Positions 53,616 through 56,753 of a DNA stretch of 64,000 nucleotides are shown here, piece after piece. This DNA comes from Asticcacaulis sp. AND118. GTDB lineage: Bacteria; Pseudomonadota; Alphaproteobacteria; Caulobacterales; Caulobacteraceae. The position numbers and the translations under genes were made by a program. The notes beneath the pieces were generated by a model. The model was not told where the DNA came from. It ran no database searches and saw only the letters and a program-made list of their open reading frames with translations. The stretch's first letter is position 1. Every line of letters begins with the position of its first letter. Location of the stretch: positions 248,001-312,000 of the forward strand of contig NZ_CP084910.1 of assembly GCF_020535245.1 (NCBI RefSeq), given 5' to 3'.

Positions 53616-56339
53616 ATGTCATCTTTGTCGCGTCGCCACCTTCTGCAATCCGCCGCTGCCCTGTCGGCGCTCACCGCCGTGCCGCTGGCCGCTGAGGCTG
53701 CGGCGCCCGTTAAGGCCAAACCGGTGTCGTCCACCGATCTCAAATGGCTGGACGGGATGCCCGCCGCTTTTGAAGGCGCGACCCTGGGCGTGCCGTGGCC
53801 GCGTGGCACGGTGAAGCCGGGCAAGGGCAAGTCGCCGGAGTTCAAACTGGGCGATGTCGCCGTGCAGTCGTGGCCGCTGGCCTACTGGCCCGACGGCTCG
53901 CTGAAGTGGACCGCTCACGCCGTGCCTGCCGGGACCAAGCCTGCCGACCTGTCGTTGAGCGTCGGCAAGCCCGCCGCCCCCGCCAAGGCCGTCAGCGTCA
54001 AGTCGGATGCCGCCGCGGTTACCGTAACCTCCGGCGATCTGGTCTGGGTGGTGCCGACTTCGGGCGAGCACCTGATCGCCACCGCCACCCGTGCGGGTCG
54101 TCTGACGCTCAAGGAGATGAAACTGGTCGCCCTGTGGCAAAGCCAGCCCGATCTCGACGCCACCGGCAACGTGTCGCAGCAAAAATTTGCCAGCAAGGTC
54201 ACCAAGGTCACGGTCGAGCAGACCGGCCCGGTGCGCGCCGTGCTCAAGGTCGACGGGACGCACAGCGGAAACGGTCGCGACTGGCTGCCCTTCTCGGTGC
54301 GTCTGTACTTCTACGCCGGTTCGCAGAGTGTGCGCATCGTGCACTCCTTCATCTATGACGGCGACCCGATGAAGGACTTCATCCGTGGCCTCGGCGTCAC
54401 CGCCAGGACGCCGATGACCGAAGAGACCCATAACCGCCACATCAGTCTGTCGGGCGACGGGGTGGGCGTGTGGGGCGAGGCGGTGCGTCCGCTGACGGGC
54501 CTGCGCCGTCCGGTCGGCAAGGGGCTCGGTCTCGCTCAGATCGAAGGCAAGGCCGTGGCCGTTGCCGATATGGCCAAGCCGGTTCAGGACGGGCTGAAGT
54601 GGATTCCGGAATGGGGCGACTTCAGCCTGTCGCAACTGACGCCCGATGGCTACACCATCAGGAAGCGCACCCGCGCCGGTCACGCCTGGATCGACTCCAA
54701 TGCCGGGACGCGTACCAAGGGCCTCGCCTATGTCGGCGGCGCGACGGGCGGCGTGGCTCTGGGCTTCAAGGACTTCTGGCAACGCGCGCCGACCCAACTC
54801 GATGTACGCAATGCTCACACGGAGGAGGCGGAAATTACCGCCTGGCTGTGGTCGCCGGACGCCCCGGCCATGGACGTGCGGCCCTATCGTTCGGCCGATG
54901 GCATGGACACGCACCCGGAGGAGATCGAAGGCCTCAACATCACCTATGAGGACTACGAAACCGGCTGGGATACGGCCAATGGCGTGGCGCGCACGTCGGA
55001 ACTGAACCTGTGGGTGCTGGGCGCGACGCCGTCGCATCAGGCCTTCTCCGACATGGCCGAACAGGTCGCCAATCCGGCGCGTCTGGTGCTGAGCCCGGCG
55101 CGCATCCACGAAGCCGGCGTCTTCGGCGACTGGGACCTGCCCAATTCGTCGACCCCGGCGCGCAAGATTCTCGAAGACCGCCTGACCTATCAGATCGAAT
55201 ATTATATGAAGGAGGTCGAGCAGCGCCGCTGGTACGGCTTCTGGACCTATGGCGACGTCATGCACACCTACGATCACGAGCGTCATATGTGGCGCTACGA
55301 CATCGGCGGCTATGCCTGGGACAATTCCGAACTCTCGACCGACCTGTGGATCTGGTACACCTACCTGCGCACCGGGCGCGCCGATGTGTTCAAATTCGCC
55401 GAAGCCATGACGCGACAGACCGGTGAGGTCGATGTCTATCACCTCGGCCGCTTCAAGGGCTTCGGCACCCGTCACGGTGTGCAGCCCTGGTCGGATTCGT
55501 CGAAGCAGCCTCGCGTGTCGAACGTCGCCTATCGCCGCATTTTCTACTACCTGACCGCTGACGAACGCGTGGGTGATCTGATGCGCGATCTGGTCGATTC
55601 CGATATGTCGCTGGAAAATGTCGATATCTCGCGCAAGCTGCCGCCGGCGCCGGGTCGCGAACGTCCTAAGGGCGTCGTCGCCTCGGGCTTTGGCACCTCG
55701 TGGGGGGCTTTCCTCGGCGCGTGGCTGACCGAGTGGGAACGTACGCAAGATCCGAAATGGCGCGACCGCATCGTCAACGGCATGACCACCATTGCCGGGC
55801 TCAAGCGCCGCTGGTTCGCCGGCGAAGCGCCTTACGACCTCAAGACGGGCAAGTTCCTGGGTACCGGCGACTATATCAGCGTCTCGCACCTCAATGCGGT
55901 GTTCGGCGTGGTCGAAATGACTTCGGAACTGTGGGAACTGGTCGACGTGCCCGCCTATCGCAAGGCGTGGCTGGAATATTGCCGCTGGTACAATGCGCCG
56001 GGACCGGAAATCACCGCCTATCTGGGGGAAAACCCCAAGGGCCGCAACCTGACCGACGCCCACTCGCGCCTGACGGCCTTTGCCGCCTTCCACGAGAAGG
56101 ACAAGGCGCTGGCCCTGCGGGCGTGGAGCGAGTTCTTCGGCCGCGAAGGGCGTGAGTCCGACGGCGGGCTGAACCGTCGCACCAGGCGCATCGACGGCGC
56201 GACGGTCCTGCGTCCGCTGGACGAAGACCCGACCTTGTCGACCAACGGCACGGCGCAATGGGGTCTGGCGGCGATGCAGAACCTGGCCCTGATCGGCGAC
56301 AGTCTGGACGAAGCAGCGGCAAAAGCCGGTATTCTTTAA
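53616..56339 (+). CDS. Exo-rhamnogalacturonan lyase family protein (PL26-like)
   Basis: A 907-residue exported protein. It starts SSLSRRHLLQSAAALSAL, a Tat-type signal with twin Arg, ending near PLAAEAA. It resembles the PcRGLX-type exo-rhamnogalacturonan lyases (PL26): a long beta-sandwich N-terminal half (DGSLKWTAHAVPAG, VRLYFYAGSQSVRIVHSF) and an (alpha/alpha) helical domain with WYGFWTYGDVMHTYDHERH and RYDIGGYAWDNSELSTDLWI. It would release units from the end of the backbone cut by PL11. Single gene behind the palindrome. Confidence 0.85.
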   Translation: MSSLSRRHLLQSAAALSALTAVPLAAEAAAPVKAKPVSSTDLKWLDGMPAAFEGATLGVPWPRGTVKPGKGKSPEFKLGDVAVQSWPLAYWPDGSLKWTAHAVPAGTKPADLSLSVGKPAAPAKAVSVKSDAAAVTVTSGDLVWVVPTSGEHLIATATRAGRLTLKEMKLVALWQSQPDLDATGNVSQQKFASKVTKVTVEQTGPVRAVLKVDGTHSGNGRDWLPFSVRLYFYAGSQSVRIVHSFIYDGDPMKDFIRGLGVTARTPMTEETHNRHISLSGDGVGVWGEAVRPLTGLRRPVGKGLGLAQIEGKAVAVADMAKPVQDGLKWIPEWGDFSLSQLTPDGYTIRKRTRAGHAWIDSNAGTRTKGLAYVGGATGGVALGFKDFWQRAPTQLDVRNAHTEEAEITAWLWSPDAPAMDVRPYRSADGMDTHPEEIEGLNITYEDYETGWDTANGVARTSELNLWVLGATPSHQAFSDMAEQVANPARLVLSPARIHEAGVFGDWDLPNSSTPARKILEDRLTYQIEYYMKEVEQRRWYGFWTYGDVMHTYDHERHMWRYDIGGYAWDNSELSTDLWIWYTYLRTGRADVFKFAEAMTRQTGEVDVYHLGRFKGFGTRHGVQPWSDSSKQPRVSNVAYRRIFYYLTADERVGDLMRDLVDSDMSLENVDISRKLPPAPGRERPKGVVASGFGTSWGAFLGAWLTEWERTQDPKWRDRIVNGMTTIAGLKRRWFAGEAPYDLKTGKFLGTGDYISVSHLNAVFGVVEMTSELWELVDVPAYRKAWLEYCRWYNAPGPEITAYLGENPKGRNLTDAHSRLTAFAAFHEKDKALALRAWSEFFGREGRESDGGLNRRTRRIDGATVLRPLDEDPTLSTNGTAQWGLAAMQNLALIGDSLDEAAAKAGIL

Positions 56340-56342
56340 TGC

Positions 56343-56376
56343 GAAAAGCCCGCCGGAAACGGTGGGCTTTTTCTTT
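56343..56376 (+). terminator. Intrinsic terminator of the PL26 gene
   Basis: AAAAGCCCGCC pairs with GGTGGGCTTTT (one G-T pair), loop GGAAAC, then TTCTTT. It begins a few bases after the stop codon. Confidence 0.85.
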
Positions 56377-56390
56377 GGCCGTGAGGCGCG

Positions 56391-56575
56391 CAATAAAAAA
56401 CGCACCGACCGGGGAGGAGGCGGGTGCGTTCTTATGAGTCATCTTGGTGGGGGGACAAAGATGATATGCCGGCCGGACGGGAACTGCCAAAAGCTGGCGG
56501 TCAAGTCCGGGGGCTGGGGGGCTGTTCAGGGGGTGGACCTGACGAACCGATCCGGCCGACGCTCATCTTGTATAA
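56391..56575 (-). ncRNA. Candidate structured non-coding RNA with its own terminator
   Basis: The 414-base gap 56340-56753 holds a fold closed by AAGATGA (56458-56464) with TCATCTT (56563-56569) and CGGCCGGA (56470-56477) with TCCGGCCG (56551-56558). Inside are two more stems, 56483-56488/56496-56501 and 56501-56508/56535-56542. On the minus strand an intrinsic terminator follows: AACGCACC/GGTGCGTT (56399-56406/56423-56430), then TTTTTTATTG. A third copy of the 7-base word (TCATCTT, 56439-56445) could pair with 56458-56464 instead, giving two exclusive folds. Strand and start are inferred; no known family recognised. Confidence 0.45.
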
Positions 56576-56753
56576 ACTAATATGGGCGGCTAAACGGCTG
56601 AATTGAGGTCATTTTGCGTTGGCTTCATTTCTTTTGGAAGCGTGGTGAGCGTGCCACCGTTTGCACAGGGTGCGGACGGGTTCGTGCGCAATCCCGCTTG
56701 CCTTTTTGCGGATGCGGGGGGCTAATAAGAGGGTATCCGCCGAGAGGTTTCGC

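Follow-up and report, generated by a model that had tools for sequence, protein, structure and literature searches.

Between a PL26-like gene and a DUF2794 gene in Asticcacaulis sp. AND118 lies an interval which a sequence-only reading took to hold an unassigned structured RNA, with two mutually exclusive folds and a terminator of its own on the minus strand. This locus raises the question of whether such an RNA gene exists and, if so, from which strand it is read, to which family it belongs and how its product might act.

Locus, strand and predicted fold

The predicted small RNA (sRNA) gene occupies positions 56391-56561 of the minus strand in the window, the whole 64,000-nucleotide stretch of DNA that was analyzed. 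It is flanked on one side by the PL26-like gene (53616-56339, plus strand), which encodes PcRGLX domains, and on the other by the DUF2794 gene (PF10984; 56754-57110, plus strand), a divergent and conserved neighbour. The minus-strand fold has an energy of -73.6 kcal/mol compared to a mean of -46.8 for shuffled sequences (z -7.2, with 0 of 200 shuffles as good), while the plus-strand fold of the same interval has a z of -2.7, which supports the proposed structured, minus-strand RNA. Exact inverted repeats in this element extend to 8 nt at most, a length that is not unusual, as it was reached by 124 of 300 shuffles; the evidence for an RNA therefore lies in the total energy of the fold and in the comparison with relatives.

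The main element of the folded RNA is a 95-nt rod (56561-56467), made up of a 13-bp basal stem (56560-56547 paired with 56480-56468), a 9-bp inner stem (56543-56535 with 56508-56500), a 4-bp side stem (56498-56495 with 56489-56486) and, at the apex, a 22-nt C-rich segment (56530-56509; CCUGAACAGCCCCCCAGCCCCC) that is a putative seed. A separate small hairpin in the linker (56464-56439), with six C in its loop, lies 3' of the rod; these two elements replace the single 112-base domain, closed by 7-bp and 8-bp stems, that had been drawn earlier. The intrinsic terminator (56395-56433) is a 14-bp hairpin (56433-56396), with CCUCCUCCC in its loop, followed by the six T already recognized in the first reading, and no protein gene is found 3' of the sRNA on the minus strand. 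Transcription of this sRNA in Asticcacaulis sp. AND118 is predicted, with a probable 5' end near 56560, where the RF01530 model described below starts, and a 3' end at the T run of the terminator.

On the 5' side of the sRNA, comparison of relatives reveals a block of ~33 nt conserved across the family (56585-56617), located between the sRNA and DUF2794, that is probably a promoter or regulator site. This block has a GAAATGACCTTATTTCGGTCC-like sequence, contains GACC/GGTC half-sites in many relatives, is followed on the minus strand by a TATACA box (56574-56569), and may bind a regulator common to the sRNA and DUF2794. At the opposite end of the interval, a hairpin on the plus strand, whose tail is rich in T (56343-56372), follows the PL26-like gene and faces the sRNA terminator; it is likely the PL26-like gene's own terminator.

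Assignment to the CC3664 family

The family was sought at the level of the window, the genome and the genus. Scanning the window against Rfam, as had been recommended, gave no family at its gathering score, and a permissive scan returned RF01530 over 56560-56399 of the minus strand at 20.8 bits, compared to a cut-off of 60 bits, as one of several weak matches. This score alone is not significant, but RF01530 has a single match in the whole 4.05-Mb genome at E values up to 1, and it falls exactly at the sRNA interval. The cut-off of 60 bits is passed by only 12 of 150 genomes of the order, so it also excludes most syntenic orthologues; a gathering-score scan of 20 relatives similarly retained only one close Caulobacter locus. 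By analyzing the genome with a covariance model (R2) of 41 sequences from Caulobacter, Phenylobacterium, Brevundimonas and related bacteria, from which all Asticcacaulis members were left out to avoid circularity, it was found that the sRNA interval is again the sole match (37.7 bits, with E 3.4e-4 for the genome and E 5.3e-6 for a search of just the window, over the rod at 56467-56561). The same model finds one strong match per genome in 25 of 25 Asticcacaulis genomes, with a few further matches that are weak (E above 0.1), and CC3664 is present as one copy per genome in this genus.

The Asticcacaulis RNA shares with CC3664 an alignment over its whole length on the same strand, a GUCGGC start, the apical core CCUGAACAGCCCC, a terminal hairpin, a basal stem with compensating changes, and a place divergent to DUF2794 with Bax1-I beyond. 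It differs in scoring far below the curated cut-off, in a rod that is longer and carries an additional side stem, in a core of 6 C rather than 7, and in a linker hairpin that the two do not have in common. From the model lacking the genus, the invariant loop and the DUF2794 neighbourhood, the minus-strand RNA of Asticcacaulis sp. AND118 is therefore orthologous to Caulobacter sRNA CC3664 (Rfam RF01530) in sequence, structure and place, with the Rfam cut-off missed, and the label ‘unassigned’ no longer applies. The Rfam entry records CC3664 as a Caulobacter sRNA; in the literature searched, no paper naming CC3664, no function for its family and no mapping to a CCNA_R number, which would lead to expression data, was found.

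A test of conservation and covariation of the stems, set beforehand, speaks for a structured RNA where the basal stem is concerned. When 55 sequences were aligned by plain MAFFT, 96.8% of the cells in a basal stem of 12 bp were paired, 10 of the 12 pairs contained changes on both sides (106 cells, compared to a shuffled mean of 27), and pairing dropped to 14-45% if the partner was shifted by 1-3 columns. Double changes are present in 12 of 12 basal-stem pairs in a model-fitted, order-wide alignment, which leans towards structure. When covariation was scored over all 3486 column pairs with our own tree-based null, a more stringent test, one helix pair was clearly significant, and when the same output was limited, by our own arithmetic, to the 12 proposed pairs, eight were below E 0.05. 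RNAalifold on the gapped alignment returned the basal stem only; the inner stems are predicted in single-sequence folds, and covariation was not seen for them.

While the stem drifts, the loop CAGCCCCCC(C)AGCCC is invariant across the family, and the apical segment to which it belongs remains nearly unchanged over ~17-22 nt across the order and beyond. Unpaired bases of the RNA are 51% C and 8% G, CCUCC-like motifs occur in 79% of tails compared to 56% of shuffles, and terminator-like sites are found in 79 of 122 relatives on the sRNA strand as opposed to 13 of 122 on the other strand. The linker hairpin is kept in the closest species only. In some congeners (L007, L008 and L011) the linker 3' of the rod contains UUUCCUCCCU or UUUCCUCCC, which resemble the core of the unrelated SisA/alpha-R8 sRNAs. 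A protein-coding reading was ruled out, as the C tract varies by single bases among relatives and no start codon is conserved.

Distribution of the family across the Alphaproteobacteria

The model R1 places the CC3664 family in 153 of 200 Caulobacterales genomes and in 34 of 42 genera, making it a near-universal gene of this order, and models R1 and R3 together find matches in eight other alphaproteobacterial families at E values up to 0.05, the weakest of which would not stand without the neighbour gene DUF2794. The rod recurs in most matches outside Caulobacterales and bears CA(A)GCCCCCC(C)AGCCCC at its tip or close to it. Within the order, loci of other families (f2, f3 and f4) have the loop CAGCCCCCCCAGCCCC and lack the CCUGA prefix. 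DUF2794 lies divergently upstream of the sRNA in family loci, usually with Bax1-I beyond, and does so at a locus that scores 168 bits with RF01530; it is beside the sRNA in most, not all, of the loci fetched from other families of Caulobacterales. Outside the order DUF2794 is present in most loci, sometimes adjacent and divergent and sometimes 1-1.4 kb away.

Additional copies of the sRNA were also observed. Several Caulobacter genomes contain a second copy ~230-300 nt downstream of the first on the same strand, and these tandem duplicates have the same core. In some Phenylobacterium and Caulobacter genomes a further, shorter copy with a ~75-nt rod lies away from DUF2794, with neighbour genes common to L253 and L254 and to L255 and L256. 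One genome (G120; L258 1962-3797) has three shorter copies, nearly identical to one another, in which the core is changed to CUGAACGCCCCCCCAGCCC and which lie ~0.8-1 kb apart.

What is new here is the Asticcacaulis member of a known sRNA family and the breadth of that family, which is far broader and older than the database records and most of which the current Rfam CC3664 model misses. The sRNA has been retained in all Asticcacaulis genomes searched, in the majority of Caulobacterales and in members of eight other families, which suggests an important function that a tractable model bacterium would make accessible to testing. It is tempting to propose, as a speculation to which we give perhaps a modest chance, that CC3664 is an ancient alphaproteobacterial housekeeping sRNA which was linked to DUF2794 before Caulobacterales arose, and that its C-rich loop contacts one conserved partner, either a protein or a core transcript, to set translation or stress physiology globally.

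Mode of action, alternatives and comparison with known RNAs

A varying stem with an invariant C-rich loop, C-rich unpaired stretches and a terminator together make up the layout of an sRNA that is directed in trans, by base pairing, at G-rich sites. The reading that we favour, with moderate confidence, is thus that this CC3664 orthologue acts in trans by base pairing of its C-rich segments with G-rich stretches of mRNAs. The RNA would start near 56560 and form a long rod whose stem holds up the apical loop, to be followed by a C-rich linker and the terminator. Its exposed C-rich segments (the apical CAGCCCCCCAGCCCC, plus CCUCC or CCCC in the linker and terminator loop) could then pair with G-rich mRNA stretches, typically around ribosome-binding sites, and so change mRNA translation or stability. 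The predicted anatomy is consistent with an Hfq-dependent sRNA that acts in trans; the mode of pairing, the targets and any dependence on Hfq are presumed from these features. With at most 2 mismatches allowed, the organism's own genome contains 32 loop-complementary sites, compared to 18 for the reversed pattern, and most are inside long open frames, a count that is weak evidence because the open frames were called mechanically. Given this mild excess over the control, none of the loop-complementary sites in this genome was a convincing mRNA target.

Among the alternatives, the one that survives best accepts the family assignment and treats the invariant loop as a protein-binding site, so that the RNA binds or titrates a protein like CsrB-type or 6S RNAs; we consider it unlikely, if still deserving of attention. 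At ~17-22 nt the invariant segment exceeds the usual length of a seed, so it could have a protein partner, and the lack of obvious mRNA targets in the organism's own genome and the single copy per genome in Asticcacaulis point in the same direction. However, the RNA is not 6S RNA, whose gene sits elsewhere in the genome, and the combination of C-rich unpaired loops and CCUCC-like tails fits mRNA pairing. We know of no protein partner of CC3664.

It is considerably less probable that the RNA, or the upstream region common to both genes, is a cis element that mainly controls DUF2794. Such a role could explain why the divergent DUF2794 neighbourhood is kept over great distances and why a block is conserved between the two genes, and in this genome the DUF2794 leader contains GGGGGGCU (56716), which could pair with 8 nt in the loop of the sRNA. 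However, this G run is missing from most relatives, so the leader was ruled out as a cis target of the sRNA. In addition, DUF2794 is ~1-1.4 kb away in some relatives, the RNA is oriented away from DUF2794 and has a terminator at its 3' end, and extra sRNA copies unlinked to this gene occur.

A two-state switch, in which the middle of three copies of AAGATGA/TCATCTT pairs either way, was the most specific proposal of the sequence-only reading and is now highly improbable. The three copies are indeed present (56439, 56458 and 56563), and the energy cost of the alternative fold is just 1.8 kcal/mol. However, pairing between copy 1 and copy 2 is interrupted in four relatives (L003-L006), reaches 6 of 7 in another (L002) and is absent in two more (L007 and L008), and the linker hairpin is itself confined to the closest species. 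The RF01530 model begins at the base aligned to 56560, which places copy 1 (56563-56569) upstream of the likely 5' end, so that it is probably not transcribed and probably belongs to the promoter, beside the TATACA box. With this pairing unconserved and one partner probably outside the transcript, the switch is rejected. A riboswitch was set aside because the mutually exclusive pairing is not conserved and no gene lies downstream on the same strand for it to control; together with the terminator, these observations agree with the earlier preference for a free small RNA. Finally, the notion that there is no RNA gene and only chance hairpins between two genes could appeal to the unremarkable length of the exact inverted repeats, but it is close to untenable, being contradicted already by the compensation seen in 10-12 of the 12 pairs of the stem, the invariant loop, the order-wide retention and the fold z of -7.2.

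The trans-acting reading of CC3664 can also be placed beside other known RNAs. The window contains no match at the gathering score of any Rfam family, and the genome's 6S RNA (RF00013) is encoded elsewhere (G000:C1:2107361-2107525, 51.2 bits), in agreement with the initial impression that features of 6S, SRP RNA and tmRNA are lacking. The family alpha-r14 (RF02344) shares CCUCCUCCC in a hairpin loop and gives a weak match over the terminator, but the score is far below the cut-off (24.6 compared to 58.8 bits), the middle hairpin of the model has no counterpart and the match extends into the terminator of the neighbouring gene. The Caulobacter sRNAs SisA-D use a C/U-rich core to base-pair both with their targets and with CrfA, a sponge (PMC12559287). 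SisA-D/alpha-R8 resemble CC3664 in having a C/U-rich unpaired core, and UUUCCUCCCU is found in the linker of congeners L007 and L008; unlike CC3664, they are encoded at other loci and lack the rod with an invariant apical loop (PMC12559287); the likeness is one of mode, not homology. In Caulobacter, a C-rich unpaired loop of GsrN, a general-stress sRNA, has been proposed to pair with G-rich mRNA sites such as that in the katG leader (PMC5869019). GsrN and CC3664 differ in sequence and locus (GsrN is near the sigT region) and homology is not claimed, but both combine a C-rich unpaired loop with an intrinsic terminator (PMC5869019), a likeness in mode of action.
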